The notes under the pieces are model-generated. The model saw nothing but the letters and a program-made list of their open reading frames with translations. It did no database searches and was not told the origin of the DNA. Shown here one piece after another: positions 147 to 26,620 of a stretch of DNA of 33,239 nt. The stretch comes from a virus. Where the stretch lies: IMG/VR virus record IMGVR_UViG_3300046791_000161, positions 1-33,239 of that record; one strand, given 5' to 3'. The first letter of the stretch is position 1; each line of letters begins with the position of its first letter. Made by a program: the position numbers and the translations under genes.

Positions 147-2629
147 TGGGAACAAGAGATTTAATAAACAAGTTTACAAGCGGAGAACTTGACCCCAAGT
201 TTATAGCCGAAGTTGATTATGACGGCTATCACAAAGCTGGTAGAAAGCTCCGAAATGTAATTTGTCTCCCACAGGGCGGCGTTACAAGAAGATTTGGCAC
301 TATATATCAAGATGTCATGGTAGACGGGATAACATTCATTTCAAACCAAGATAACGTGCGCTTAATCAGCTACGAACATCAAAATGATGAGCTGTACGAT
401 ATTATAATACGCGCTGATGTAATGAATGTGGTTGCGTTCGATATATATCTATTGGGCGTATTTCAAACTTCCGTACCGGCACCAGCATTAACTTATACTC
501 AGCCTATGATTCGAGAAATTCGATGGGTAAAAGATTATGACAGATTAATCATTCTGCACAAGGATGTGCGTCCGTATGAACTGCGCAGAATAGCGGTTAA
601 TAATTGGGAAATTTTGCCCATAACTTTTCAGTTTTTCCCTACATATGATTTCTCATCTAGCGATAATCCCGCAACATTACCTACGCCTAACGTTCCCTAT
701 ACATCACCTACGGTAACATTTACACCCAATGCTATGCACGCCACGATGCTTACTGCAAACATGGCTGTATATACATCTAATCATGTTGGAGGAGTATTTT
801 TAGGGAATGCTGGCGTATTTAGAATCACAGCCGTTAACGGCGCTGGAACCGTGGCAACCGGATATTCTCTCGAAGATTTTACTGACACAACTCCAATCAT
901 TGGACCGCTTGCCAGTTTGCTTGAAAGAGCCTGGAATGACGGTGCAGCAATTGCGGGGGCTCCTCCAGGAATTGTCAGAGGATGGCCTAGCCGAGGATGC
1001 TTCTATCAGTCTAGATTAGTTATGGGTGGTTCACCGGCATTGCCAGGAATTGTATTTGCTAGCGTGACAAAAGCTTATTACGACTTTGATGACGCAGAAG
1101 GCAACGCAACAGATGGATGGGGCGTTGAGCTTGGCGTTACTGGTAATGACATTTTAACGGATATATTGGCAACCAAATCATTAGTGTTGCTTGGGAATAA
1201 AGGGCCCGCGTCAACTAGTATTTTGATTGACACACCTACAACACCAACCAATGCATTTTTAAATACCCAGGGATCTGAGGGTAGCCGAAACATGAATTCT
1301 GTAATCATAGACAATCAGGTGGTCTATGGTGACAGGGCAGGTAACACCATATGGAGCATGAGCTATGAAATCCCCGATACAGGCTACAACATTTCGAACG
1401 CGTCGATACTTTCTACGCAACTTATTCGCGGTCCTCGTTGGGCCGATATCTTTGATCCTGACGATGTTGACGGCAGGTACTATTTGTTGGTTAATAGCGA
1501 TGGTTCTATGGCCGTGTATAACACCATAAGAGATGAAAATATAAAAGCGTGGACGCTTGCTCAAACTACCGGAGAATTCACGGACGTAGCATGTGTAGCC
1601 AATCAAGCAAAGGTGTTAACAAAGCGTCGAGTAAATGTAGGCTTTCCTTTAGGGCAGGCTAATGCAGATTATACGGTCGATACAACATTTAACGCATTTA
1701 GAAATATAACAGCGAGTATAGATGCTGCAGTTAGCACGCCCGTTTTTATGGTTGATGGTGATTATTTGCTTATTGGCAATCAGATACCATTTTTACAAAT
1801 ACAGTTCATGCTTGCCGTTGTTGCAAGCGCGTCAATCCACCCCACATTTGAATTTTTAGATAACACAAATGCTTGGGAAGCTTTTATACCAACCAATGAA
1901 TTTACTAATGGATTTACGAATAGCGGAAATATCGGCTGGACTCAAGACCAAGTTTCCGACTGGCTGTCACAGCCAATCGACCATACAACAAAAACATTTG
2001 GTGAATTAGTCCCTCTATATTGGCTAAGAATCAAAAGAGTTAACTCCGCAATAATCACAAATCCCGTAATTCAATCGATGATGGTAGATAGTGAAGATAG
2101 AATTTATTTAGAAAGCCTAGATTTTGCTGTTTACATGGATGCTCAAATTCTTACAACATCAGATGGCGCAGGCATTGTGACAGGTCTTAACCATCTAGAA
2201 GGTCAAAATGCATATGTATTTGTCAATGATTTTCCTATTGGAAATTTTTATATTCCAGTTGGCGGACAAATAGACGTAAAAACAGCAAACGCAAATGTCA
2301 GGGTGGGCTTAGATTACAAACCATCCATTATACCAATGCCAACAGTAGCTTTCCTACAAAATGGTCTAAGCGTTTATGAGCCCACAAAGATCGAATACAT
2401 GTATGTAGATTTCTTTGAATCACTCGGAATTGTGGCAGATGGTAAACCGTTACCTGAAACATCCCCCGGCGCATTTATGGCAAACCAAATACCCGAACCA
2501 CAAACGAGTTACTACAAAATCCCAACTTACAATGGATGGGATGCTCGCGTAGAAATTGAAATTACCCAATCATATCCCGCCCCTATGAATTTATTGGCGG
2601 TGAGCTACACAGTAGAGGTAAGCCCTTAA
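146..2629 (+). CDS. Tail tubular protein B (T7 gp12-like nozzle protein)
   Basis: An 827-aa protein that by family forms the tail nozzle below the tail ring. The N-terminus (GTRDLINKFTSGELDP..., then KAGRKLRNVICLPQGGVTRRFGT) has the typical opening of podovirus gp12-like proteins: a short 'F..GELDP' motif followed by 'L.N....PQGG..RR.GT'. T7 gp12 is 794 aa, so the length fits. I chose ATG 146 over the in-frame ATG 86 because it starts the conserved N-terminus and overlaps the stop of tail tube A as TAATG; the extra 20 residues from 86 are cysteine/tryptophan-rich and lie entirely over the upstream gene. The next gene starts in the stop codon (TAATG at 2627-2631). Family membership is recognised from sequence style, not from a search. 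Confidence 0.88.
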   Translation: MGTRDLINKFTSGELDPKFIAEVDYDGYHKAGRKLRNVICLPQGGVTRRFGTIYQDVMVDGITFISNQDNVRLISYEHQNDELYDIIIRADVMNVVAFDIYLLGVFQTSVPAPALTYTQPMIREIRWVKDYDRLIILHKDVRPYELRRIAVNNWEILPITFQFFPTYDFSSSDNPATLPTPNVPYTSPTVTFTPNAMHATMLTANMAVYTSNHVGGVFLGNAGVFRITAVNGAGTVATGYSLEDFTDTTPIIGPLASLLERAWNDGAAIAGAPPGIVRGWPSRGCFYQSRLVMGGSPALPGIVFASVTKAYYDFDDAEGNATDGWGVELGVTGNDILTDILATKSLVLLGNKGPASTSILIDTPTTPTNAFLNTQGSEGSRNMNSVIIDNQVVYGDRAGNTIWSMSYEIPDTGYNISNASILSTQLIRGPRWADIFDPDDVDGRYYLLVNSDGSMAVYNTIRDENIKAWTLAQTTGEFTDVACVANQAKVLTKRRVNVGFPLGQANADYTVDTTFNAFRNITASIDAAVSTPVFMVDGDYLLIGNQIPFLQIQFMLAVVASASIHPTFEFLDNTNAWEAFIPTNEFTNGFTNSGNIGWTQDQVSDWLSQPIDHTTKTFGELVPLYWLRIKRVNSAIITNPVIQSMMVDSEDRIYLESLDFAVYMDAQILTTSDGAGIVTGLNHLEGQNAYVFVNDFPIGNFYIPVGGQIDVKTANANVRVGLDYKPSIIPMPTVAFLQNGLSVYEPTKIEYMYVDFFESLGIVADGKPLPETSPGAFMANQIPEPQTSYYKIPTYNGWDARVEIEITQSYPAPMNLLAVSYTVEVSP

Positions 2630-17022: not shown

Positions 17023-17433
17023 TCAGAAAGGGATATTATCTTCATAGTCAGCATATTCATCTGTCGTCGGTTGACCGCTCGGCTTAGGCGGTGGATTATC
17101 TCCGCTAGTAGCATTACCTTCAGATTTTGATCCGAGCATTTGCATTGAATTGGCAATGATACTTGTAGAATAGTGCTTAATTCCATCCTTTTCATAGGTT
17201 TGATTATCGATTTTTCCTTCCACATAAACTTTCATCCCTTTTGTAAGGTACTGTCGAGCAATATCAGCAAGCTTAGAAAAGAAAACCACGTTATGCCACG
17301 TGGTTTTCTCGTTCTTTGATCCATCTTGCCCTGTAAACTTTTCTGATGTGGCAATGCTAATTTTTACGAACTTATCTTTTTTTTCGACAAAACCAATATT
17401 GCCGATGATCATTGCTTTATTTAACCCGCTCAT
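17023..17433 (-). CDS. ssb: Single-stranded DNA-binding protein
   Basis: A 136-aa SSB. The OB-fold is clear over residues 1-105: 'LNKAMIIGNIG', 'KFVKISIATSEKF', 'EKTTWHNVVFFSKLADIARQYLTKGMKVYVEGKI', 'STSIIANSMQMLG'. A disordered Gly/Pro/Asn/Ser linker follows, then the acidic tip 'EYADYEDNIPF', which in bacterial SSBs recruits partner proteins. It coats single-stranded DNA in replication and recombination. Ribosome site TAGGGATGAT before ATG. It is downstream of the Sak4-like ATPase in the same operon, which fits the known partnership of Sak4-type annealing proteins with SSB. The leftward promoter at 18632-18660 probably drives it. Confidence 0.95.
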   Translation of the reverse strand: MSGLNKAMIIGNIGFVEKKDKFVKISIATSEKFTGQDGSKNEKTTWHNVVFFSKLADIARQYLTKGMKVYVEGKIDNQTYEKDGIKHYSTSIIANSMQMLGSKSEGNATSGDNPPPKPSGQPTTDEYADYEDNIPF

Positions 17434-17440
17434 ATCATCC

Positions 17441-17578
17441 CTATGCTAGACTGCTAGCCAACACTAAAATATTAAAGCCCACCACAATGATAAGTGGTGA
17501 GCAAACTATAGGCCATGACCAGTTTATTTTTCCTTTAACCTTAAGGGTTAAGAATACGAAAAATATAATTAAAAACAT
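17441..17578 (-). CDS. Tiny two-span membrane protein between ATPase and SSB
   Basis: A 45-aa frame with ATG overlapping the stop of the ATPase gene (TAATG) and ending eight bases before the SSB start. It has two hydrophobic segments (FLIIFFVFLTL; IVCSPLIIVVGFNILVLA) joined by 'KVKGKINWSWP'. This 'hydrophobic, LK.KG.I.WSW..V..PL' pattern recurs in tiny phage and prophage membrane proteins of unknown role. Coupling to both neighbours makes it convincing in spite of its length. It might tether replication or recombination proteins to the membrane, but that is only a guess. Confidence 0.75.
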   Translation of the reverse strand: MFLIIFFVFLTLKVKGKINWSWPIVCSPLIIVVGFNILVLASSLA

Positions 17579-18459
17579 TATGACGCCTTTTTACCTGCTA
17601 CGAATGTTAAAAACTCTACTTGTTCAGGGTTAAGGCGCTTCATAAGCTCGCGCTTTTCTCTGTCGCTGTACTCGTCGATTATTTCCTTAGCTGCGAGCAA
17701 GTCTATATCAACGCGGTGCTTTTCCAACAGTTCAAGATCTGCGTCTAGGTTGCGCGCCGGCTTGCCGCTCGTGAGCCACTCTCTAAGCGTCTCTCCCGTC
17801 TTGACCGTTACTTTCTCTACGCAACCCTCAAAAAGGCCCGTACGGTCCTTGGAAACGCTAAAATTGTGCCCCATGTCGCAATCGAAGACCGTTGTAAACT
17901 CGTATTCCATTCCATCGCGCTGAATTGGAGCCAATCCAACCTTCTTTGGGGCGGTCTTACCTCGGTCGTTAATCTCTGTAATGTAATCCTGCTTACTTCT
18001 CATTGTTACGATTAGATGCGTGTCCGAATGAACCATTTTAGATTTAAACTTTTCCTGTTCCTTTGTGATAGAGCCCCAGTTCGTATAAGAATTTCCGCCT
18101 CGGGTATCTAAAGCTGATTTCTTTTCGAGCAAACCGCCCTCACCAGCCCAAGCATGAGAAATAGAATCTATAATAATTACATCGTATTTCTCTTTTTGAC
18201 CAAGTTCTAAAGCCTTTAGATATTTATCAATTGTGTATGGGGCTTCTATTTCCAAAACGTCAAAATTAATACCAGCCGTTAATTGATGGTCAGCATATAG
18301 ATTTGAACTACCGTCCTCGGAATCAATAACAAGAATTCTACCTTCCGGACATAACCCTTTAGCCAATAATAGTGAACTCATCGTTTTACCAGCCCCAGAG
18401 GGGCCGGTAATTGCTAGTTTAATTTTAACTGATTTTCTTTGAGCTTTTTGAATCTTCAT
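17578..18459 (-). CDS. Sak4/RecA-like AAA ATPase (single-strand annealing recombinase)
   Basis: A 293-aa P-loop ATPase. Walker A 'GPSGAGKT' is at residues 19-26, a 'ILVIDSEDGSSNLYAD' strand follows, and Walker B 'YDVIIIDSISHAW' lies near residue 95. The body 'GSITKEQEKFKSKMVHSDTHLIVTMRSKQDY' and 'VGLAPIQRDGMEYEFTTVFD' match phage AAA_24/Sak4-type ATPases. These shortened RecA relatives anneal single strands and are stimulated by SSB, encoded two genes downstream. The C-terminal 70 residues are helical and charged. It starts one base after the stop of a 46-aa gene. In a genome without a recognisable polymerase it is probably the main phage recombination protein. Confidence 0.88.
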   Translation of the reverse strand: MKIQKAQRKSVKIKLAITGPSGAGKTMSSLLLAKGLCPEGRILVIDSEDGSSNLYADHQLTAGINFDVLEIEAPYTIDKYLKALELGQKEKYDVIIIDSISHAWAGEGGLLEKKSALDTRGGNSYTNWGSITKEQEKFKSKMVHSDTHLIVTMRSKQDYITEINDRGKTAPKKVGLAPIQRDGMEYEFTTVFDCDMGHNFSVSKDRTGLFEGCVEKVTVKTGETLREWLTSGKPARNLDADLELLEKHRVDIDLLAAKEIIDEYSDREKRELMKRLNPEQVEFLTFVAGKKAS

Positions 18460-18460
18460 A

Positions 18461-18601
18461 TTAATATACCTCTACCCATTCGCCTGATTCATTGAATTGA
18501 AATTCAAGGGAATTTCCCTCTATTTCGCAAAATCCAATTTCGTCCTGATAAGGGCATTGAGGCAAGTAACTGTTTTGCAATTCTTCATCTTCGTTAAACA
18601 T
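18461..18601 (-). CDS. Small acidic protein, first gene of the leftward SSB operon
   Basis: A 46-aa acidic protein (MFNEDEELQNSYLPQCPYQD ... EFQFNESGEWVEVY) with two cysteines (CPYQDEIGFCEIEG) that could bind a metal. I use ATG 18601 because AAAGGAGTGAGCAAA lies just before it; a longer frame to 18670 would begin upstream of the promoter. It is the first gene after the leftward promoter, and the ATPase gene follows after one base. Function unknown. Confidence 0.65.
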   Translation of the reverse strand: MFNEDEELQNSYLPQCPYQDEIGFCEIEGNSLEFQFNESGEWVEVY

Positions 18602-18609
18602 TTTGCTCA

Positions 18610-18625
18610 CTCCTTTTGTGTTAGC
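18610..18625 (-). promoter_or_regulatory. Transcript leader shared with the second leftward operon
   Basis: Read leftward, the sequence GCTAACACAAAAGGAG begins seven bases after the -10 box, so it would be the first 16 bases of the message and includes the ribosome site. The same 16 bases occur at the same distance from the other leftward promoter (24141-24156). Confidence 0.6.
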
Positions 18626-18631
18626 CTCACC

Positions 18632-18660
18632 AGAATAGCAAATAATTATGCATGACACAA
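18632..18660 (-). promoter_or_regulatory. Leftward sigma70 promoter of the SSB operon
   Basis: Read leftward: -35 TTGTGT (18655-18660), 17-base spacer, -10 TATTCT (18632-18637) preceded by TGC, an extended -10. Start of transcription expected near 18625. The -35 overlaps the palindrome at 18652-18670. Confidence 0.7.
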
Positions 18661-18670
18661 GATTTGTCAT
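18652..18670. promoter_or_regulatory. 19-bp palindromic operator across both divergent -35 boxes
   Basis: ATGACACAAGATTTGTCAT has six perfect terminal pairs (ATGACA/TGTCAT) plus an inner pair, centred on G18661. It covers the leftward -35 (18655-18660) and the rightward -35 (18664-18669). A protein bound here would shut both promoters. The ribbon-helix-helix gene that starts 53 bases downstream is the obvious candidate binder. Confidence 0.6.
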
Positions 18671-18691
18671 TTTGTTTTTAATGTGTATAAT
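18664..18691 (+). promoter_or_regulatory. Rightward sigma70 promoter of the regulator operon
   Basis: TTGTCA (18664-18669), 16-base spacer, perfect TATAAT (18686-18691). A leader of about 25 bases holds AAAGGAG, then ATG 18723. Drives the ribbon-helix-helix gene and probably the genes after it. Confidence 0.75.
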
Positions 18692-18722
18692 AGCGTTTTG
18701 ATTAAAGGAGAATTAAATAATA

Positions 18723-18914
18723 ATGAAGCGCGGATACCATAGAGCTTCTGGCCCTTTGAGAACGTGTACAGTCACGTTTAGGGTTCCTTTTGATATAAAT
18801 GAAAAGCTCAATGAAATAGCTAGAAATCGAGGCATTAGCCGAACACAGGTTGTAGAAGAGATTTTTGACCCAGCATTTGAAAAGGTAATAAAAAATGAAA
18901 AGATCGATCAGTGA
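18723..18914 (+). CDS. Ribbon-helix-helix transcriptional regulator
   Basis: A 63-aa protein. After a basic arm (MKRGYHRASGPLR) comes the classic ribbon-helix-helix pattern: beta strand 'TCTVTFRVP', helix 1 'FDINEKLNEIARNRG', turn and helix 2 'SRTQVVEEIFDPAFEKVI'. Such proteins bind palindromic operators as dimers through the paired strands. It lies just downstream of a divergent promoter pair with a 19-bp palindrome over both -35 boxes, so autoregulation together with control of the SSB operon is likely. AAAGGAG precedes ATG by 13 bases. The last 20 bases overlap the next gene. Fold recognised by pattern; target is inferred. Confidence 0.82.
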   Translation: MKRGYHRASGPLRTCTVTFRVPFDINEKLNEIARNRGISRTQVVEEIFDPAFEKVIKNEKIDQ

Positions 18915-19308
18915 TGAATTAAGAGAGCATGTTAGGCGCCATTTAGAAAAGATAGAAAAACCTCAGATTGATGTTATTCGATCTAGTGAGGCTATTTTTG
19001 TCGGTGCTTTCATGGCCGGAAATAATGTTAAAGATGCACTAGGAGATGATCGGAAACTACCAGAAGGCGCGCTATTTATTGAGGCATGCATCAATGCTAT
19101 TGGTGAATTAACCTCGCATATAGTCGAACAATCAAATGACGATGTTCATGATGAAATTTTTGCAGAAATCAAAGGTCAGGTATCAAGAGGGATGAAGGCG
19201 GGTGAAAGGCGCAAAACCCAAACAAAACAAATCCGTGTCGAATGTGACAGCAAAGAAGAGGCTGAAAAGATTGAAAGAATTTTAAATGAGATATTGAAAA
19301 AGCTTTGA
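18895..19308 (+). CDS. Hypothetical protein downstream of the regulator
   Basis: A 137-aa, helical, charged protein starting inside the regulator gene (20-base overlap, with AAAGGTAATAAAAA before ATG). It contains 'IFVGAFMAGNNVKDALGDDRKLPEGALFIEACINAIGELTSHIVEQ' and ends in an amphipathic helix 'SKEEAEKIERILNEILKKL'. Basic middle 'KAGERRKTQTKQIRVE'. I recognise no family. Coupled expression with the regulator suggests a partner or early-control role, but nothing shows it. Confidence 0.65.
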   Translation: MKRSISDELREHVRRHLEKIEKPQIDVIRSSEAIFVGAFMAGNNVKDALGDDRKLPEGALFIEACINAIGELTSHIVEQSNDDVHDEIFAEIKGQVSRGMKAGERRKTQTKQIRVECDSKEEAEKIERILNEILKKL

Positions 19309-19315
19309 CATAAAA

Positions 19316-19347
19316 AAGCCGTGGTTCCAGGGATGGAGGCACGGCTT
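19316..19347. terminator. Stable stem-loop; terminator-like on the minus strand
   Basis: AAGCCGTG (19316-19323) pairs with CACGGCTT (19340-19347); inside, TCCA pairs with TGGA around GGGA. Read leftward, the stem is followed by a run of T, like an intrinsic terminator, though no leftward gene lies to its right nearby. Read rightward it begins the leader eight bases after a stop codon. Confidence 0.5.
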
Positions 19348-19377
19348 AGTACTAACAAACAAATCGGAGTTTACTCT

Positions 19378-19404
19378 ATGAAAAACAACCACAGCTCTGG
19401 TTGA
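19378..19404 (+). CDS. Possible 8-codon minigene (leader peptide)
   Basis: CGGAG lies eight bases before ATG 19378, which opens a peptide MKNNHSSG and stops at 19402-19404. A 6-bp hairpin (CAACCA / TGGTTG, 19386-19403) covers most of it, so ribosome movement would change RNA folding. A leader-peptide role is inferred from this layout only. Confidence 0.35.
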   Translation: MKNNHSSG

Positions 19405-19496
19405 ATTTGCACTATAGACTCACATTTGATGTATTTGCAATAGATCTTTTACTTTTAGTGGTATAGGATCGCGGAAATTTTTAGTTTTAACTTCGA

Positions 19497-19544
19497 CGCT
19501 TACTTATCTGTCTACGGATTTAGCCATCCTCAGTAAAGTAAGCG
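19497..19544. repeat. 9-bp inverted repeat in the leader/origin region
   Basis: CGCTTACTT (19497-19505) and its exact complement AAGTAAGCG (19536-19544), 30 bases apart. Confidence 0.6.
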
Positions 19545-19564
19545 CCCTATCACAGGACAGCGAT

Positions 19565-19723
19565 ATGAAGCGAATTATCCAGACTCAAGAGCCTTCCGTC
19601 AATACCCCCAGAACTAACTTTTTTCAATCTTACGATCTACACTGTTTTCCTGATTTCGAATCACAGGGATGTAGTTGTGATTCGCGTATTGTTCAAAACA
19701 AGGACGTGCTCCTATGCAATTAA
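19565..19723 (+). CDS. Possible 52-aa frame coupled to the initiator-like gene
   Basis: ATG 19565 opens 52 codons (KRIIQTQEPSVNTPRTNFFQ..., four cysteines near the end) and stops ten bases into the next gene, giving a possible coupling. The ribosome site (CAGGACAGCGAT) is modest and the frame contains the 9-bp hairpin at 19657-19684. It may be chance; I report it because the overlap pattern is that of neighbouring real genes. Confidence 0.25.
   Translation: MKRIIQTQEPSVNTPRTNFFQSYDLHCFPDFESQGCSCDSRIVQNKDVLLCN
19657..19684. repeat. 9-bp hairpin just before the initiator-like gene
   Basis: CGAATCACA (19657-19665), ten-base loop, TGTGATTCG (19676-19684); perfect pairing. It ends 29 bases before the initiator-like ATG. 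Related 'ATCACAGG' also occurs at 19549, so these may be protein-binding sites. Confidence 0.6.
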
Positions 19724-20679
19724 ACTTACCTAATGTTCTTTCAGATATTTCCAAGAAAAAAGGAAGGTTACCTGACAAAATTTTCCAAGATGCAAATCAA
19801 CATAAAATAATGTGGGTCAAAGCTGCCACCATCGAATGCAAACTTAGACTTAACGAGCCAGTCGTCTTAGAGGCTTTGGCATTTCTTACCGATCCCAGGA
19901 TGGGGATTGGCAAGCCGTCCATAGCCACCATCATGGAAAGAATTTTGGATAAGAAAGGAACCTATCTTTCTTATAATGCTGTCCAAGGAATACTGAAGCG
20001 CCTTGAATTTAAAGGCGCGATTGGTTCTATAGCGGGAAAATATAAGAATGGTTGGCGCGAAACTAACACATTTAAACTTATTGGCTTCGAATATAAGTTA
20101 GCAAACAATTCTCCAGATTCTGGGACAGGTATTAACCTTCTTGATCCAGTATTAACTACCATACCAAGTAATGAGATCTATAGGGATAGTGAGTCACGAA
20201 ACAAAGGTGGTAATTTTGATTTCATGATGGAAGAGAGAATTAAGGCGCTCCCCGAGTCGATAAAGATTCAAGCTAGAGAGGAAATGCTAGCTGCATTGCA
20301 AAAGCAATCAATCACATATAAGGTATCTTACCTAAACAAAATAATTGCTAGACTACTTAAAAACCCACAAACCACGGGGGAACCTATGGCGACCAACAAG
20401 GCAAGTTTTTTTGAAAATGCATTAGAAGCCCAAACCTCAAGAGAAAAGGCTGTAGCGCTCGCCACAGAGCGAATGAAGGCAGAAGGATGCTTTTATCCTA
20501 TCCATACAACACAAGCCGCTGGAGATTATTTGGATGAGTTAAATGCTTATGGAGCAAAACATAGCAAATATGTGGTTGAATTTATGCGCCAACCCTCTGG
20601 CTCTAGACCGCTTGAGCTTGATAACGTGAAGCTTCTCAAGCCTGTAAACCAATGGGGAAGACCTTACTACGATGACTGA
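19714..20679 (+). CDS. Winged-helix replication-initiator-like protein
   Basis: A 321-aa protein. Residues about 30-125 look like a winged-helix DNA-binding domain: 'VVLEALAFLTDPRMGIGKPSIATIMERI' then 'TYLSYNAVQGILKRLEFKGAIGSIAGKYKNGWRETNTFKLIG', a helix-turn-helix with recognition helix and a beta wing. The C-terminal part is charged and helical and ends 'GRPYYDD'. This layout resembles phage replication proteins of the O/DnaD-like type, which bind an origin and bring in the host helicase; a transcription factor is the alternative. Supporting context: hairpin-rich region upstream, SSB and Sak4 operon nearby, no phage polymerase or helicase found. The ribosome site is weak (AAGGACGTGCTCCT). 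Next gene overlaps by eight bases. Confidence 0.6.
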   Translation: MQLNLPNVLSDISKKKGRLPDKIFQDANQHKIMWVKAATIECKLRLNEPVVLEALAFLTDPRMGIGKPSIATIMERILDKKGTYLSYNAVQGILKRLEFKGAIGSIAGKYKNGWRETNTFKLIGFEYKLANNSPDSGTGINLLDPVLTTIPSNEIYRDSESRNKGGNFDFMMEERIKALPESIKIQAREEMLAALQKQSITYKVSYLNKIIARLLKNPQTTGEPMATNKASFFENALEAQTSREKAVALATERMKAEGCFYPIHTTQAAGDYLDELNAYGAKHSKYVVEFMRQPSGSRPLELDNVKLLKPVNQWGRPYYDD

Positions 20680-20881
20680 CATAAAAGAGAATATATTTTT
20701 TGCCCTAGCAAAAATCAAATCAACATTAGGGGATAAATATTTCCAAAAAACACATAAAGAATTTGAAGCGGCATTTCTTAGAACTGGAGATAGCAAAAGC
20801 AAAGATTGTTTAGATATTGGCAGAAAAATACTTAAAGACTTCGCAGATAAAATTATACCATTATCGAAGGATCGAGAATGA
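20672..20881 (+). CDS. Hypothetical small protein
   Basis: A 69-aa Lys-rich helical protein (TDIKENIFFALAKIKSTLGDKYFQKTHKEFEAAF...). It starts eight bases inside the initiator-like gene and its TGA overlaps the following ATG (ATGA). Not recognised. The chain of overlaps with an initiator-like gene makes co-expression certain in practice and a replication accessory possible. Confidence 0.65.
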   Translation: MTDIKENIFFALAKIKSTLGDKYFQKTHKEFEAAFLRTGDSKSKDCLDIGRKILKDFADKIIPLSKDRE

Positions 20882-21141
20882 ATCCAGACCGTCAAAGAAC
20901 TATCGAGCTTACGCTTAGAAAGCTTGAAGAAAGGGTTAATACCTTATTGACCAAATGTGACTCGAAAGAAGAGGCTACATTTGCAATATGCGCACTTGCA
21001 CAGGATATGATTCGAAAGTTTTATTTTTGTGTAAATACATTCATTGGGCAGCAAGAAGCTAAAGCAGCTATCAAAGTAGCGCTAGACTGCGTATTGTTAG
21101 ATTACGGAATGTCTGTGGTTATACATGAGTTCAAACAATGA
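20878..21141 (+). CDS. Hypothetical small helical protein
   Basis: An 87-aa protein (NPDRQRTIELTLRKLEERVNTL..., 'ATFAICALAQDMIRKFYFCVNTFIGQQEAKAAIKVALDCVLLDYG') predicted mostly helical with four cysteines. ATGA overlaps on both sides. Family not recognised; expressed with the initiator-like gene. Confidence 0.65.
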   Translation: MNPDRQRTIELTLRKLEERVNTLLTKCDSKEEATFAICALAQDMIRKFYFCVNTFIGQQEAKAAIKVALDCVLLDYGMSVVIHEFKQ

Positions 21142-21320
21142 ACATCACAAAGCTCACCATGAGCGAAGAGTATCATTCAGTTTACGAATCCTGTATTACC
21201 TTTATGATGGATGCTTTGACAGAATATGTGCGCTGTATACCAATCAGGATTGATGAGATTGAGATTGAGAAAGATTTGCGTAAAATATTGATGAAGAATA
21301 TTTTAATTGAAAACGAATGA
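21138..21320 (+). CDS. Hypothetical small acidic protein
   Basis: A 60-aa protein (NITKLTMSEEYHSVYESCITFMMDALTEYVRCIPIRID..., ending IENE). ATGA overlap with the previous gene. It closes the coupled set that starts at the initiator-like gene; a structured 167-base gap follows. Not recognised. Confidence 0.6.
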   Translation: MNITKLTMSEEYHSVYESCITFMMDALTEYVRCIPIRIDEIEIEKDLRKILMKNILIENE

Positions 21321-21386
21321 TAGAGTTTTAAGAAAGTTAATGCTGAAGGCTTTTATACGTACATGCTTAGCTAGAAAAAAGGTAAG

Positions 21387-21452
21387 GTGCGCTATTGAGG
21401 GATGCAGCATTAGGACTCTTTCAACTGACTTAATGCGTACTCAATAGCGCAC
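21387..21452. repeat. Perfect 13-bp inverted repeat with nested 6-bp stem
   Basis: GTGCGCTATTGAG (21387-21399) and its exact complement CTCAATAGCGCAC (21440-21452) enclose 40 bases, inside which GCATTA (21407-21412) pairs with TAATGC (21431-21436). No T-run follows on either strand, so it is not a plain terminator. It lies in the 167-base gap before the gene at 21488 and 36 bases before its ATG. A structured RNA or a protein-binding cruciform are both possible. Confidence 0.75.
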
Positions 21453-21487
21453 ATGGAAATATAACACAAGGATAGGTGGAATCAACG

Positions 21488-21691
21488 ATGAGCCTTAGAA
21501 CGCAAAGACTATTAAGTGCTATGAAAGGGATTGAAGAAGATCTAAGGTATCACATCAGGCCCTGTGATGGCGTCTCAGAGAAGCTGAGCGACGATAGCTA
21601 TATCGAATTTCTAGAAGAGGTTATTGATTTATGCATGGTTATTACAAGAACATGCGATAAGCTGATTGATAATTATGAGGATAAAACATGA
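21488..21691 (+). CDS. Hypothetical small acidic protein
   Basis: A 67-aa helical, acidic protein (SLRTQRLLSAMKGIEEDLRYHIRPCDGVSEKLSDDSYIEFLEEV...). I use ATG 21488 with AGGTGG eight bases upstream; an in-frame GTG at 21476 would lie inside that ribosome site. Its TGA overlaps the next ATG (ATGA). Preceded by the 13-bp nested hairpin, which may control it. Function unknown. Confidence 0.6.
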   Translation: MSLRTQRLLSAMKGIEEDLRYHIRPCDGVSEKLSDDSYIEFLEEVIDLCMVITRTCDKLIDNYEDKT

Positions 21692-21849
21692 GTTATTCTG
21701 AAATGTTTTTATTATTTTCTGTTACATGTGTGGCTGTTTTATATTTTCGAGCCATATATTTAAAAAATCCAGTTGTACAAATGCCCATAGTTAAATACGG
21801 GCTTCCTTTGCTGACCTTTCTTTTGATAACGCCGATACTTATTGGTTAG
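21688..21849 (+). CDS. Small two-span membrane protein
   Basis: A 53-aa protein with two hydrophobic segments (MFLLFSVTCVAVLYFRAIYL; YGLPLLTFLLITPILIG) around a short 'KNPVVQMPIVK' loop. It overlaps the previous gene by ATGA and its last 11 bases overlap the end of the opposing leftward operon. Size and topology would fit a class II holin, but the same is true of many phage membrane micro-proteins and there is no endolysin next to it. Confidence 0.65.
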   Translation: MSYSEMFLLFSVTCVAVLYFRAIYLKNPVVQMPIVKYGLPLLTFLLITPILIG

Positions 21850-22018
21850 GATCGTAAGGGTGATTGTGCTCCCAGGCCCATTCGCCTAGGTTGTGACCCC
21901 ATTCATTGCAGACTTCATGATTCTCGTGAATTATTTTAGGCAGCGTTATGATTGTGATAATTGCTATTAAAGCCGGTAAAAATCCGCCTGAAACTTCATT
22001 TATCTCTATTTTGTTCAT
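21839..22018 (-). CDS. Small peptide with double-glycine (bacteriocin-like) leader motif
   Basis: A 59-aa peptide. The N-terminus MNKIEINEVSGG matches the 'E-(L/I)-x-x-V-S-G-G' end of double-glycine leaders cleaved by peptidase-containing ABC exporters in class II bacteriocins and microcins. After GG comes a hydrophobic stretch (FLPALIAIITIITLPKII), then a His/Trp/Asn-rich tail (HENHEVCNEWGHNLGEWAWE...). ATG 22018 gives a 12-residue leader, shorter than usual; an in-frame GTG at 22045 would make it 21. It overlaps the upstream gene by 23 bases. No exporter or immunity gene is recognised here. It may equally be a small membrane protein whose start matches the motif by chance. Confidence 0.5.
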   Translation of the reverse strand: MNKIEINEVSGGFLPALIAIITIITLPKIIHENHEVCNEWGHNLGEWAWEHNHPYDPNQ

Positions 22019-22196
22019 TAATCTCACAAATATCCCTCTCGTCACATTTACAAAAAAATAAATTTCTTACTGTATCTCTAATCTCATCTTCATCAAATTC
22101 AATGCCAACATCTTTTATTTGTCTTAGCAAGATCTCCTGAACCATTACAACGACTAAAGCCTTTGTTATCATTTTTGTTTCTAGTAAGTCATTCAT
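21996..22196 (-). CDS. Hypothetical small protein
   Basis: A 66-aa protein with a hydrophobic helix near the start (ITKALVVVMVQEILL), an acidic middle (GIEFDEDEIRDTV) and 'FFCKCDERDICEIN' with three cysteines near the end. Its ribosome site is weak (AATAAAGT before ATG); GGAG is 33 bases away, beyond a palindrome. Unknown function. Confidence 0.55.
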   Translation of the reverse strand: MNDLLETKMITKALVVVMVQEILLRQIKDVGIEFDEDEIRDTVRNLFFCKCDERDICEINEQNRDK

Positions 22197-22205
22197 ACTT
22201 TATTA

Positions 22206-22224
22206 CGTAATATGTAATATTACG
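22206..22224. repeat. Perfect 8-bp palindrome with 3-base centre
   Basis: CGTAATAT-gta-ATATTACG. It lies between a GGAG (22230-22233, read leftward) and the ATG at 22196. It could be an operator or an mRNA hairpin that brings ribosome site and start closer. Confidence 0.55.
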
Positions 22225-22293
22225 ATATTCTCCTATAATTTAGACAAATAGATCATGAGTTTTATTACTTGCGATAATCAACGTTATCGAAAG

Positions 22294-22479
22294 TTAAATT
22301 ATTGAAAGAACTTTCACTTCTGTACCGACCCAAGTGCCGTCATCTTTTGGATGAAGTATGTATTGTGTTTCTCTTCTCACATTTATGACAACCCCACATT
22401 CACCGTCACCATCGTGACAAAAAATCTCTTCATCATCAGGATACTTTTTGAGTAATTCTTGTAACTCTTTGTTGGTCAT
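22294..22479 (-). CDS. Small 'MTNKELQELLKKYPDD' family protein, copy 1
   Basis: A 61-aa protein beginning TNKELQELLKKYPDDEEIF, then 'GDGECGVVINVRRETQYILHP'. The N-terminal 'EL...LKKYP.D..I' helix-plus-strand pattern is widespread in tiny phage proteins. Two further copies lie in the same operon (22577-22768 and 23025-23216), so this is a local paralogue family. Its ATG overlaps the end of an unusual frame upstream by four bases. Function unknown. Confidence 0.7.
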   Translation of the reverse strand: MTNKELQELLKKYPDDEEIFCHDGDGECGVVINVRRETQYILHPKDDGTWVGTEVKVLSII

Positions 22480-22592
22480 TCTTGTTTTTCTCTTTCTGTT
22501 TCCAATTTTATAAACTCACTTTCTATATGCCACGGGCATTTATAAATGCTTGCTTTGCAAATGTTATCGATAGTAATTAATAGTAAATTTTT
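22476..22592 (-). pseudogene. Open frame without ATG (broken gene or unusual start)
   Basis: A 38-codon frame runs leftward from 22592 to TGA 22476 and contains 'DNICKASIYKCPWHIESEF' followed by a charged helix. The TGA overlaps the next ATG (ATGA), the same coupling as between real genes of this operon, and the amino-acid pattern looks like a true protein. It has no ATG, GTG or TTG in a suitable place near its left-in start. Either it uses a rare ATT-type start, or a base loss removed its beginning; in another frame ATG 22596 opens ten codons over the same bases. Confidence 0.4.
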
Positions 22593-22768
22593 TCATGACC
22601 TGATTCGTTGGGTATCAATAAAATATGATCTTTCAAAACGGCAGCCTGAAATACTTCATTAACACTTAATAAATTACCAAAGTTCCAATGATATTCGTCC
22701 CAACAAAATTTAACAGGTAACCCATCAGGATACTGTTTAAGTAATTCTTGTAACTCTTTATTGGTCAT
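22577..22768 (-). CDS. Small 'MTNKELQELLKQYPDG' family protein, copy 2
   Basis: A 63-aa protein. The first 14 residues differ from copy 1 at only one position (Q for K), while the rest is quite different ('FCWDEYHWNFGNLLSVNEVFQAAVLKDHILLIP'). I use ATG 22768, which overlaps the previous stop as ATGA; a longer frame to 22813 overlaps that gene further and lacks a ribosome site. Likely arose by duplication, with selection keeping the N-terminal helix. Confidence 0.7.
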   Translation of the reverse strand: MTNKELQELLKQYPDGLPVKFCWDEYHWNFGNLLSVNEVFQAAVLKDHILLIPNESGHEKIYY

Positions 22769-23028
22769 ATCATATTTGCCCCATAACTTTTCATATTTTC
22801 TATATATCCGCATAACTTAATGGCTACATCCATAGGATTGTCGGCTATATGTTTGTCATCAAATTCAAATACTTTAAAAGGGAAAAATATTTCTACGCTA
22901 TCTTTTCCTTTAGATCTAAAAAAACAAACATTAGCGCCATACAATCTAAAATAACCATGATCATTCATCAAAAGCGTTTTTATTAAAGCATCTTCTATGC
23001 TCATATAAGTTGTTGACTCTGAATTCAT
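22765..23028 (-). CDS. Hypothetical small protein
   Basis: An 87-aa protein (NSESTTYMSIEDALIKTLLM..., 'GYFRLYGANVCFFRSKGKDSVEIFFPFKVFEFD') with a mixed alpha/beta pattern. ATGA overlaps join it to both neighbours, which are paralogues of one another. Not recognised. Confidence 0.65.
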   Translation of the reverse strand: MNSESTTYMSIEDALIKTLLMNDHGYFRLYGANVCFFRSKGKDSVEIFFPFKVFEFDDKHIADNPMDVAIKLCGYIENMKSYGANMI

Positions 23029-23216
23029 TCTTTTTCCTCATGAAGAAATCTAATATTACTCGCAGACATTGTTAATAGGATAAGCTTATCTTCTGCAATG
23101 TATTCTGCCCATGCTTTATCTAGCTGAAGTTCGTTAGTTTCGCCATCCACATGGATATTAATTTTAGAATCAGGAGGATACTTTTTGAGTTCTTCGATTA
23201 GTTCTGAGGCTGTCAT
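23025..23216 (-). CDS. Small 'MTASELIEELKKYPPDSKINI' family protein, copy 3
   Basis: A 63-aa protein. 'EL.E.LKKYPPDSKI.I' matches copies 1 and 2 and the broader phage family with 'EL.e.L...P.d..v.v' openings; C-terminal part 'WAEYIAEDKLILLTMSASNIRFL' is beta-rich. ATGA overlaps on both sides. This copy is the most divergent of the three. Function unknown. Confidence 0.72.
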   Translation of the reverse strand: MTASELIEELKKYPPDSKINIHVDGETNELQLDKAWAEYIAEDKLILLTMSASNIRFLHEEKE

Positions 23217-23392
23217 TCGTATTTCACCATTGCTTGATATAGATGATTGTGCCCCAAAGAACTATTATAGGAACATATACCGCCCTGCGGATACCATCCT
23301 TCTTTTATTAAAATATCAATACGATATGTTGAAATATTTCCATAAGAGTCTTGAGCTGAAACGATTTGATAATCAATTATTTTTTTATTCAT
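23213..23392 (-). CDS. DUF1737-like small protein, copy 1
   Basis: A 59-aa protein: 'KIIDYQIVSAQDSYGNISTY', 'DILIKEGWYPQGGICS' and the end 'HLYQAMVKYE'. The pattern 'Y.IV....... I.EGW.PQGG... QAMVK' is that of DUF1737 proteins, short phage and bacterial proteins of unknown role. It overlaps the next gene by four bases (ATGA) and the previous one by eight. The neighbour upstream ends with the same six residues, QAMVKYE, and is a second copy. Confidence 0.8.
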   Translation of the reverse strand: MNKKIIDYQIVSAQDSYGNISTYRIDILIKEGWYPQGGICSYNSSLGHNHLYQAMVKYE

Positions 23393-23618
23393 ATTTCACC
23401 ATAGCCTGACAAAGCTCTGGCCTTAAATGTGAATCTTCTTTATGTGTGAAGGGGCCATAGTATAAACAATAACCCACCTCAGAATATTCGCGAATTAATT
23501 GAGATAGAACAGTCCTTTCCCTGGCGGCAATTACAATGTAATCACTTATTTTTTTTGGTTCCCTAAATTGTTTTAAACCATCTATTATGAAATACCAATC
23601 TTCAGGATGTCCGTTCAT
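23385..23618 (-). CDS. DUF1737-like protein, copy 2 (longer)
   Basis: A 77-aa protein with an extra N-terminal part (NGHPEDWYFIIDGLKQFREP), then 'DYIVIAARERTVLSQLIREYSEVGYCLYYGPF' and the ending 'CQAMVKYE'. The second half fits the DUF1737 pattern but the usual 'GW.PQGG' is replaced by 'GYCLYYG'. ATG 23618 has AAGGATC upstream; the TTG at 23624 is within that site. Downstream copy overlaps by eight bases. Confidence 0.7.
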   Translation of the reverse strand: MNGHPEDWYFIIDGLKQFREPKKISDYIVIAARERTVLSQLIREYSEVGYCLYYGPFTHKEDSHLRPELCQAMVKYE

Positions 23619-23848
23619 TTGCAAAGATCCTTATACATATATTCATACTTTTTTAATTCTTTATATTCTTCAGATTGATAAAATTGTTGCATTCCATATA
23701 TTTCCCCGGCGTTAAAACCATGCTCTGCGCATATCATTAAAGTTTGTTCTAATTTTAATGAGTCTTGCACACTAAAGCGATCTTTTAGGGTAGAGAGAGC
23801 TTTAATAATTACATTTCTAAGATTATTTAGGTGTTCTTCGCGAGTCAT
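23615..23848 (-). CDS. Hypothetical helical protein
   Basis: A 77-aa helical protein (TREEHLNNLRNVIIKALSTL..., 'EHGFNAGEIYGMQQFYQSEEYKELKKYEYMY'). Clear ribosome site GAGGAAAAA before ATG 23848. It overlaps the tiny membrane gene upstream by four bases and the DUF1737-like gene downstream by four. Not recognised. Confidence 0.68.
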   Translation of the reverse strand: MTREEHLNNLRNVIIKALSTLKDRFSVQDSLKLEQTLMICAEHGFNAGEIYGMQQFYQSEEYKELKKYEYMYKDLCK

Positions 23849-23949
23849 TTTTTCCTCGATAATTTTTCACATAGCAAAAAGCCCACGGTAAAACCTACCG
23901 TGAGCCCTATTAAGAAACAGATTAATAATTTTTCAGAATCGATCCACAT
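23845..23949 (-). CDS. 34-aa single-span membrane protein
   Basis: A micro-protein MWIDSEKLLICFLIGLTVGF... ending CEKLSRKK: one membrane helix with a basic end, so probably N-out/C-in. ATG 23949 sits in the stop of the previous gene (TAATG) and its TGA overlaps the next ATG (ATGA), so it is firmly part of the operon. Its coding sequence contains a 10-bp hairpin followed by five T (23876-23905), which could also end or attenuate transcription. Confidence 0.72.
   Translation of the reverse strand: MWIDSEKLLICFLIGLTVGFTVGFLLCEKLSRKK
23876..23905 (-). terminator. Terminator-like hairpin inside the 34-aa gene
   Basis: Read leftward: GCTCACGGTA, five-base loop, TACCGTGGGC (ten pairs, one G-T), then TTTTT. 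It has the form of an intrinsic terminator but lies in a coding sequence after the first two genes of the operon, so it may act as an attenuator. Confidence 0.5.
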
Positions 23950-24131
23950 TACATACCATCATAATGCTTAACAGGCATTTTCATTCTTTGCCCTATTGTT
24001 AACTTGACGCGCTTAAATTCTCCGCATTGGAGTTTTTTGAATACTTCGATATCACCCATATCTCTTAAGATATCCTTATGTATTATTGCGCATGTCTTTA
24101 TTTCAATGATCGTTTCTATTAGATGGTTCAT
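23949..24131 (-). CDS. First gene of the second leftward operon, hypothetical
   Basis: A 60-aa protein (NHLIETIIEIKTCAIIHKDI..., 'DIEVFKKLQCGEFKRVKLTIGQRMKM'). I use ATG 24131 with AAAGGAGCAATATCAA before it; a longer frame to 24191 would start within the promoter. The promoter at 24163-24191 drives it and the genes after it. Not recognised. Confidence 0.65.
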   Translation of the reverse strand: MNHLIETIIEIKTCAIIHKDILRDMGDIEVFKKLQCGEFKRVKLTIGQRMKMPVKHYDGM

Positions 24132-24140
24132 TTGATATTG

Positions 24141-24156
24141 CTCCTTTTGTGTTAGC
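24141..24156 (-). promoter_or_regulatory. Transcript leader shared with the SSB operon
   Basis: Read leftward GCTAACACAAAAGGAG, identical to 18610-18625 and also starting seven bases after its -10 box. Contains the ribosome site of the 60-aa gene. Confidence 0.6.
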
Positions 24157-24162
24157 AAATGC

Positions 24163-24191
24163 AGAATATCAATTAATAAAAGTTTTGTCAA
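24163..24191 (-). promoter_or_regulatory. Leftward sigma70 promoter of the small-gene operon
   Basis: Read leftward: perfect TTGACA (24186-24191), 17-base spacer, TATTCT (24163-24168). Transcription expected from 24156. Same -10 box and spacing as the promoter at 18632-18660. Confidence 0.8.
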
Positions 24192-24198
24192 TCCGCTA

Positions 24199-24249
24199 AT
24201 GTATAGAAAAATAAGAAAATCTATACATGTCCAATCGCTTATGTATAGA
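24199..24249. repeat. Three 9-bp ATGTATAGA boxes (candidate operators)
   Basis: ATGTATAGA at 24199-24207 and 24241-24249, and its complement TCTATACAT at 24220-24228. Centres are 21 bases apart, two helical turns, so all three would face the same side of the DNA. They fill the space between the leftward and rightward promoters. Likely binding sites for a regulator of both. Confidence 0.65.
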
Positions 24250-24252
24250 AAA

Positions 24253-24592: not shown

Positions 24593-25060
24593 ATGGCTAC
24601 ATATGATAAATATGGAAACTTAAAAACAGTTAATGAAAAAACCACAACAAAGTACGATGCGGAAGCGCCTGAAAGATATTTAGCCCTTTGCAGGGAGGGT
24701 GGAAGCGTTCCAGAATTTTGCCGTAATGAGATGATATGCAGGCGCACTTTAGATGCATGGTGTGAAAATTATCCTGAAATGAAACAAGCGAAAGAATTGG
24801 GCAAAGTAATAGCGGAGGGATGGTGGATAGAACAGGCAAGAAATAATCTTGTAACGCATTCTTCTAAAGAATATGGCACAACAAAATTCGACACGAATTT
24901 ATATAAGTTTATTGCTGGCGGTCGCTTTGGTCACACAGGCGATAAAAATATTGACGATCGTCTCACGGCTTTAGAAAATGAAGTGCGAGCACCCCAAACT
25001 TTAACTACAGTTGATGCACACGCAGAAAGAGCAGAATGCGAAAGTGAGACAAAAGACTAA
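24593..25060 (+). CDS. terS: Terminase small subunit
   Basis: A 155-aa protein. Residues about 25-65 form a helix-turn-helix ('ERYLALCREGGSVPEFCRNEMICRRTLDAWCENYPEMKQA'), followed by helices for ring assembly ('GWWIEQARNNLV', 'TNLYKFIAGGRFGHTG') and a disordered acidic tail. This is the layout of small terminases that recognise phage DNA and feed it to the large subunit. The large subunit lies 222 bases downstream, after one small gene that starts in the terS stop (TAATG). The ribosome site is AGGG. Confidence 0.85.
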   Translation: MATYDKYGNLKTVNEKTTTKYDAEAPERYLALCREGGSVPEFCRNEMICRRTLDAWCENYPEMKQAKELGKVIAEGWWIEQARNNLVTHSSKEYGTTKFDTNLYKFIAGGRFGHTGDKNIDDRLTALENEVRAPQTLTTVDAHAERAECESETKD

Positions 25061-25302
25061 TGGATGACGAGTTTAAAAAGTTTTTGTTTAGGTATATAGA
25101 AAAACAAATAGATTATTATTCTGAAATGAGCCATTTTTTTTTAAATAGTATAGATGACGATGATTTTTATAAAAACGGATATTATTTGCTGATGGGCATA
25201 GAAAAAGGTCTTAATGATATAAAGTATAGTGTAAAACGTATGGCGGGAATGTCTCACGAAGAAATACAAAAGATTTTAACTGATGATACTGAGATTAAGT
25301 GA
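25060..25302 (+). CDS. Hypothetical acidic protein between the terminase genes
   Basis: An 80-aa acidic, aromatic-rich protein (DDEFKKFLFRYIEKQIDYYSEM..., 'INSIDDDDFYKNGYYLLMGIEKGLNDI' style helices). It starts in the stop of terS and overlaps the start of terL by 20 bases, so all three are translated together. An extra gene between small and large terminase is not usual. Not recognised. Confidence 0.65.
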   Translation: MDDEFKKFLFRYIEKQIDYYSEMSHFFLNSIDDDDFYKNGYYLLMGIEKGLNDIKYSVKRMAGMSHEEIQKILTDDTEIK

Positions 25303-26620
25303 CACTACCCGATTACGACCCCAACAGTTTCCTTTATTTGATGCTTTTTTTAATAACGGTATCAAGCATATCATTCGTGTTGCTCATCGTCGTTTCGGTA
25401 AAGATTTTGAGGCATTTTCGCTCACTTGGTGTGCAGCCCTCGAAAAGCGAGGAATCTACATCTACTACTTACCCACGATCGGTCAGTCACGCCGAGTTAT
25501 CTGGGACACAATTGGCGAAGATGGAACGCGTCTTGTCGACCGTATCCCTAAGCGACTCCTTACCAAGCTCAATGGATCAGACCAAACGATCACGCTCCTC
25601 AACGGATCGATTATCTACATAACCGGCTCTGACAACTACAAGCGGATGGTTGGTCTCAACGCGACGGGAATTGTTTACTCGGAATATCAAGACACAAACC
25701 CCGCCGCTACAGATGCCATGCGTCCGATGGTCACCCGCAACAAGGGCTGGCAAATGTTTATTGGCACACCTCGAGCTTACAACCACTTTGGTCAACTATA
25801 TGAAATGCAGAAAGATAACCCAGAATGGTTGGTGACATCCCTTACAATTAATGATACGTATGATCATGAAGGGAAACCTATTATCACCGAGGAAGACATA
25901 GAGGCGGAAAGACGCAATGGAATGCCGGAAGAGCTTATTCAACAAGAATACTACGGGTCGTGGGATGCCGCGATACGTGGAGCCTACTATAGCAAGCAAT
26001 TTATTCAGGCAAGAAAAGAAAACAGGATTGGAAATTTTCCGATTAATCCTCAGTTTCCTGTGTACACTGGTGCTGATTTGGGGTTCGATGATCATTTTGC
26101 GATTTGGTTTTTCCAACATTACAATGAAAGACTTTTTTTCGTTGGATATTATGAAAACCGAGAACAAGATATTGCCCATTACTGCTCAGTCATGAAGGCA
26201 AAACAACGCGAATGGGGATGTAGGTATTCAACTCACTTTGCCCCCCATGATATCGAAGTAAGGGAGCTAGGACCCGGAAAAAGCAGAAAAGCCATTGCGC
26301 TTGAAAATGGGATTATGTTTCGTACAGTTCAGAGACCGGCACGAAAGATTCACGGCATTCATGTGGTTAGGCACATGTTTCCTCGCATGCATTTCAACGA
26401 GCCTACATGCCGACAAGGATTGAAACATTTAACCGAATATCGCTCAGACTATAATGAGAAAGATGATATATATAGTTTGGAGCCAAAAAGGACCGCAGCC
26501 ACACACGGATCTGACGCGATGCAAACCGCAATGCTTGGATGGATGAAAGCTTTTGATGATAATGGACTAAAGAAGCAAATTGAGATATCAAACTTATATG
26601 GAAGTACATTTTGGGTGTGA
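25283..26620 (+). CDS. terL: Terminase large subunit (packaging ATPase/nuclease)
   Basis: A 445-aa DNA-packaging motor. The ATPase has an unusual Walker A 'HRRFGKD' at residues 35-41 (Asp where Ser/Thr is usual; this RRxGKD form is known in a branch of phage terminases), an adenine-proximal segment 'YYLPTIGQSRRVIWD' and Walker B 'IVYSE' (130-134). The RNase H-like nuclease starts near residue 255 with 'YTGADLGFDDHFAIW' (first catalytic Asp) and ends with 'HGSDAMQTA' (H408, D411). The motif set differs from T7 gp19, so the packaging module is not simply T7-like. A reversed HNH gene follows after three bases. Confidence 0.93.
   Translation: MILRLSDTTRLRPQQFPLFDAFFNNGIKHIIRVAHRRFGKDFEAFSLTWCAALEKRGIYIYYLPTIGQSRRVIWDTIGEDGTRLVDRIPKRLLTKLNGSDQTITLLNGSIIYITGSDNYKRMVGLNATGIVYSEYQDTNPAATDAMRPMVTRNKGWQMFIGTPRAYNHFGQLYEMQKDNPEWLVTSLTINDTYDHEGKPIITEEDIEAERRNGMPEELIQQEYYGSWDAAIRGAYYSKQFIQARKENRIGNFPINPQFPVYTGADLGFDDHFAIWFFQHYNERLFFVGYYENREQDIAHYCSVMKAKQREWGCRYSTHFAPHDIEVRELGPGKSRKAIALENGIMFRTVQRPARKIHGIHVVRHMFPRMHFNEPTCRQGLKHLTEYRSDYNEKDDIYSLEPKRTAATHGSDAMQTAMLGWMKAFDDNGLKKQIEISNLYGSTFWV

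Follow-up and report, generated by a model that had tools for sequence, protein, structure and literature searches.

The stretch of DNA analysed here, hereafter the window, is the whole of the IMG/VR virus record IMGVR_UViG_3300046791_000161 (33,239 bases), in which two leftward operons are predicted to start with the same 16-nucleotide (nt) leader. It represents the almost complete genome of a small tailed phage. One contig (L086) spans the junction, matching the last and the first part of the record at 100% and placing 9 bases between them; the genome is therefore circularly closed. The window proteins include a terminase, a podovirus-type head-tail connector (PF12236) and a capsid (PF19821). 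The nearest capsids of named phages are those of Dunaliella virus SI2, Methylophilales phage MEP301 and 32-kb Vibrio phages (about 26-32% identity), and no match of the window to any named phage was found at the DNA level.

The two leftward operons and their promoters

Operon B, the recombination operon, successively encodes a 46-amino-acid (aa) acidic protein, a Sak4-like recombinase, a single-strand DNA-binding protein (SSB) and small genes. Operon A, also leftward, consists of small genes of no assigned role; it adjoins the gene of the terminase small subunit and diverges from it. Their gene contents suggest that both operons are early. The features of the operon B locus are:

17023..17433, minus strand: SSB (phrog_44)
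17578..18459, minus strand: Sak4-like recombinase (phrog_1366/phrog_124)
18461..18601, minus strand: 46-aa acidic protein, encoded by the first gene of operon B
18610..18625, minus strand: copy B of the shared 16-nt leader, at predicted +1 to +16 and containing the Shine-Dalgarno (SD) sequence AAGGAG
18626..18631, minus strand: discriminator GGTGAG, unlike that of copy A
18632..18637, minus strand: -10 box TATTCT, an extended -10 with TGC in front
18652..18670: inverted repeat ATGACAcaagattTGTCAT, a candidate operator for a repressor, located between the two divergent promoters
18655..18660, minus strand: -35 box TTGTGT, weak, 17-nt spacer
18664..18691, plus strand: strong divergent promoter TTGTCA-16-TATAAT of the next gene, whose leader TTGATTAAAGGAG differs from the shared one
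18723..18914, plus strand: ribbon-helix-helix (RHH) repressor-like gene, divergent from operon B

Those of the operon A locus are:

22294..23848, minus strand: remaining small genes of operon A; a repeated N-terminus (MTNKELQELLKKYPDD and similar) is found in three
23949..24131, minus strand: first gene of operon A, 60 aa, without family
24141..24156, minus strand: shared 16-nt leader, copy A
24157..24162, minus strand: discriminator GCATTT
24163..24168, minus strand: -10 box TATTCT, an extended -10 with TGA in front
24186..24191, minus strand: -35 box TTGACA, 17-nt spacer
24186-24210 and 24228-24252: two 25-bp direct repeats (84%) upstream of promoter A, candidate operators
24593..26620, plus strand: terminase small and large subunits, adjoining operon A and divergent from it

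A promoter and leader element shared by both operons

The leader, GCTAACACAAAAGGAG, occurs only twice in the window, each time on the minus strand, and shuffled sequences never attain this copy number. As the initial annotation had reported, each copy stands six bases past a TATTCT box, with a 17-nt spacer to TTGTGT (18610 copy) or TTGACA (24141 copy). Both promoters have an extended -10 (TGnTATTCT) and a spacing within the 16-18 nt expected of sigma-70 promoters, the operon A site, TTGACA-17-TATTCT with TG, agreeing at 10 of 12 positions and the TTGTGT-17-TATTCT site, also with TG, being weaker. The likeness extends further than first noted, since 30 of 37 positions are identical between -21 and +16. 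The seven differences fall at -17, -13 and -5 to -1 and none within +1 to +16 (P = 0.011 if seven differences are placed at random within 37 nt). The discriminators thus differ at five of six positions (GGTGAG vs. GCATTT), and outside the 37 bp the copies are unrelated, with flank identities of 8/40 and 10/40.

The AAGGAG of both copies, and likewise the end of the 16-mer, lies 8-9 nt before the ATG of a small non-structural gene. The predicted leaders are 24 and 25 nt long, with SD-to-ATG distances of 8 and 9 nt, and are essentially unfolded (z = +1.07 and +0.91). The claim that the two messages would have identical 5' ends, ribosome site included, while their -35 boxes and genes differ, is supported for the two early promoters, with transcription start sites that are predicted from the sequence.

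Repeated 16-mers are not rare as such (a mean of 1.2 per simulated sequence of this genome), so the significance of the match rests on its register to the -10 box. In unrelated genomes, runs common to two promoter-like sites in the same register reached at most 12 nt (1.18 million pairs compared); extrapolation from these promoter-like pairs gives about 3e-4 expected 16-nt runs in the window. The pattern ATTAnTTGnTATTCTnnnnnnGCTAACACAAAAGGAG, which was itself derived from the two copies, matches at 29 of 29 specified positions at both sites, against 0 expected in shuffles. A chance match of two good ribosome sites near two promoters could draw on the roughly one repeated 16-mer expected in such a sequence and on AAAGGAG being a common SD sequence. 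The common register, the extended match and the occurrence of a second phage (G004, see below) with a pair of its own argue strongly against it, and we regard this origin as practically negligible. The other exact 16-mer repeat of the window, ATAATTTTTCACATAG (23859 and 28002), was judged to be due to chance.

The initial annotation suggested shared control at the RNA level. A small RNA or protein of the host or phage would recognise the common 5' end in trans and affect stability or translation, or the leader would load an antiterminator. Both messages would indeed offer the same accessible 5' end, and terminator-like hairpins lie within both operons (23912-23873, z = -4.1; 17502-17477, z = -2.2). 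However, these hairpins sit within short membrane-protein-like open reading frames (34 and 42 aa; 23950-23840 and 17579-17445, minus strand) that read through them. In addition, a search restricted to phage RNAs found no complementarity to the leader above 10 nt, and the leader has neither an Rfam match nor structure. This argues against known RNA-control elements. The put sites of HK022 and the nut sites of lambda give joint control in cis, through related sequences close to the 5' ends of the two early transcripts, but they are longer and include RNA structure, whereas the window leader is unfolded and its 16 nt are far shorter than known put sites. Control of this kind is therefore very unlikely here.

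Leaders in related phages

The sampled genomes were picked via Sak4 and terminase, so the frequencies below are not representative of phages at large. The exact 16-mer was absent from the relatives G001-G004, L085, L088, L095 and L099, and did not occur in a leader context across 64 Sak4 loci. No common leaders were found in the Vibrio, Methylophilales and Dunaliella-virus relatives. In IMG/VR, 18 stretches contained the exact 16-mer, a number close to the level expected by chance, and almost none of them showed a promoter or start context; TATTCT followed by N6 and the 16-mer had no match.

One relative, G004 (77% Sak4 identity), has the same layout as the window, with an operon A beside the terminase and a recombination operon B on the same strand, although its structural module differs (own terminase, another portal family). 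Its operons A and B both begin with GGCTTCGTTAGTCAGAGA (-6 to +12), unlike the window leader, and their +1 lies 6 nt after TATACT or TACAAT. The operon B leader common to G004 and G002 is GTTAGTCAGAGA(A/T)TACACGAGGA, six bases after the -10. A search of IMG/VR for TANNNT+N6+GTTAGTCAGAGA returned 36 stretches, of which early leaders were found only in G004 (two) and G002, the rest being mostly coding. Searches for tRNAs and Rfam families in the early regions of G002 and G004 gave no match. G004 also carries a ParA-like partition gene (L108:2833-3510), with a relative in G002 and G001, which suggests a plasmid-like prophage state in these relatives.

A third leader, ACGTCAATACCGACG, begins operon B in four other phages (G055 35369; G056 812; G063 11233, minus strand; L156 262, minus strand), where it is shared from +1, each time six bases after a -10 box that varies from phage to phage. 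The mean identity of pairs reaches 1.00 over +1 to +15, vs. 0.39 in the discriminator and 0.64 in the -10; it is 0.56 between -36 and -13 and 0.37 between +20 and +40. The leader is clearly the constrained part of the operon B start in these four phages. Promoter boxes would usually be expected to outlast leaders, and over the first 15 nt the reverse is observed here. Within this loose group, constraint on the transcript start can thus be independent of that on the promoter. The wider idea that early transcripts have a constrained unit in their first 12-16 nt is supported by the G004 pair and by these four phages with diverged promoters.

A scan of 23 further genomes or large contigs revealed no other within-genome pair longer than 12 nt at promoter-like sites, though several of them have A and B operons; longer apparent pairs in G002 were overlapping copies of one stretch. 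Within genomes, 12-mers common in the same register peak at the -10, as forced by the definition of the sites. At +1 there are three unrelated cases (window, G004 and L214), a small number but above the roughly 0.35 per offset from +12 to +59. Between genomes, common 12-mers at +1 are not enriched overall (29 pairs vs. about 20-30 at other offsets). Conservation of leaders therefore belongs to particular groups and not to all promoters of the set.

In L214, a contig of a gammaproteobacterial metagenome-assembled genome, the repeated sequence is a palindrome (GCCACGG-N6-CCGTGGC; GCCACGGTCGCACCCGTGGC in the first copy) at 1598-1616 and 2569-2587, overlapping the +1 of two promoter-like sites, one copy before sak4 and one behind. 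A second common block, GTAACCAGGAGAAA, precedes both start codons. In L060, AACAACTGACAGAAAGG precedes each of two tandem genes (1263-1279 and 1464-1480, minus strand) at an equal distance from their -10 boxes.

An alternative is a DNA operator, in which a phage repressor (RHH in the window, P22-Cro-like in G055, G056, G063 and L156) would bind +1 to +16 and shut off both early operons together. A repressor-like gene diverges from operon B in the window, G001, G002 and G004 (RHH-like) and in the four-phage group, where it is Cro-like, the G055 protein matching PF14549 at E = 8e-4, below the curated cut-off. The leader of these four phages also contains the dyad CGTC-N6-GACG, so it could act there as a DNA operator or as a small RNA hairpin. 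However, dyads are confined to this group and L214. By inspection, GCTAACACAAAAGGAG contains no dyad or tandem repeat, and neither does the G004 leader; for the window, the lack of symmetry argues against an ordinary operator. Moreover, no copy of the leader lies at the repressor's own promoter, other operator-like repeats are present upstream of both promoters (18652-18670 and 24186-24252), and neither a boundary of sharing at +1 nor the inclusion of the SD would be expected. Binding of a repressor to the shared leader is thus unlikely.

The main rival is homogenisation without regulatory function. The leader copies would then be the footprint of recombination between the two early promoters (duplication, gene conversion or a module-joining linker), perhaps via the phage's own Sak4, which operon B encodes in both the window phage and G004. 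It gains weight from the genome-specific sharing, the leaders of one genome being identical and those of different genomes distinct. Same-strand genes precede the terminase in the nearest structural relatives (L085, G001, G002 and G003), which therefore lack operon A at this place, and the operon A of the window looks acquired. Genes of one family can also lie in operon A of one phage and in operon B of another, as does the homologue of the 46-aa acidic protein (operon B in G001, operon A in G004), and a third GTTAGTCAAAGGAG is found in the middle of an operon of G004 with no -10 in front. In modular phage genomes, linker or boundary sequences are short identities at the edges of exchangeable modules. 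The identity in the window, in contrast, keeps a fixed register to the promoter elements and extends over the SD. It forms two well-kept blocks on either side of a discriminator that differs at five of six positions, not one continuous patch, and a perfect +1 to +16 beside this diverged discriminator argues against a single recent copying event. Conversion within a genome would also leave unexplained the identical +1 to +15 of four phages with diverged surroundings. On balance, we consider homogenisation rather unlikely.

A putative early-transcript module

We tentatively favour a cis-acting reading, plausible but somewhat short of probable, in which the 37-bp element is an early-promoter and leader module that is used twice and matches the output of both operons. 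The host RNA polymerase would start both leftward early messages at the same G (of GCTAAC; 18625 and 24156), so that both would begin with GCUAACACAAAAGGAG and carry leaders of 24-25 nt. The common leader would fix the initial transcribed sequence, and with it promoter escape and the identity of the 5' end, and would give both operons the same unstructured, strong ribosome site. Two early operons that exchange genes among relatives would thereby be expressed in step. Selection would act through the initiation of transcription and translation and not through a bound factor.

This cis-acting module is preferred because the leader has no symmetry, structure or complementary phage RNA and is kept beside a diverged discriminator, identity between the copies resuming exactly at the predicted +1. 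The finding of genes of one family in operon A of one phage and in operon B of another fits two operons expressed as one regulon.

Several observations weigh against this reading. First, the 16-mer, for which conservation in relatives had been proposed as a check, was found in none of those recovered by Sak4, portal, terminase or capsid, and, among the relatives of G004, several that appear to have both operons lack a common leader. In addition, the common stretch of G004 does not reach the SD; a role in translation would therefore not apply to the window and G004 alike, and part of the window leader is itself an SD, which selection for good ribosome sites alone would favour. The -35 of the operon B promoter is weak (7/12 overall) and an alternative, ATGACA-17-AATTAT (18670-18642), overlaps it; its +1 is therefore a predicted one. 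Finally, G062 and G064 have retained the promoter of operon A (26/31) and not its leader (9/16), so the constraint on leaders is not universal. The initial annotation had named precisely this pattern, promoters kept without the motif, as speaking against its proposal; it is observed in these two phages, while operon B of the four-phage group displays the reverse.

The proposed module of initial transcribed sequence and ribosome site would be analogous to the Start-Associated Sequences (SAS/ESAS). These repeated motifs covering the ribosome-binding site, with unproven function, were described in Cluster K mycobacteriophages (PMC3203893) and Cluster EF Microbacterium phages (PMC7302621). Like them, the window leader is a short, asymmetric and unusually well-conserved repeat over the ribosome site before non-structural genes, with a sequence that varies by phage group. 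However, a genome with SAS carries some ten copies or more, which as a rule stand 3-7 bp ahead of a start codon, whereas the window leader has two copies, is set by its distance from the -10 and +1 and includes promoter sequence. Furthermore, SAS are conserved cluster-wide, whereas in the relatives of the window the principle recurs and the 16-mer does not. For the T5 N25 promoter, the first stretch of the transcript sets the rate of promoter escape and the productive fraction; that work concerns variants of one promoter, vs. two natural promoters with one initial transcribed sequence here (PMC12464699).

A further proposal, which we consider distinctly unlikely, is that early operons are tagged by a 5' address of 12-18 nt from +1, specific to a genome or clade, independent of the promoter boxes, identical within a phage and read by a dedicated factor.

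In the phages sampled, leaders and not only promoters can be constrained, with a sequence specific to the genome or clade. This suggests that the opening nucleotides of an early phage mRNA can serve as a conserved control element and need not be filler. If functional, the transcript start would be a control part of early operons in phages that evolves on its own and is easily overlooked in annotation.

Two minor observations concern the window. An intergenic strong hairpin, GTGCGCTATTGAG ... CTCAATAGCGCAC (21387-21453, plus strand; z = -3.85), had no Rfam match and is followed by TATAACACAAGGATAG, which has TAACACAA in common with the leader. The N-terminal coding repeat (MTNKELQELLKxYPD and similar) of three operon A genes lies at 22434-22479, 22723-22768 and 23171-23216, and a similar N-terminus is also found in small genes of G002 and G004.

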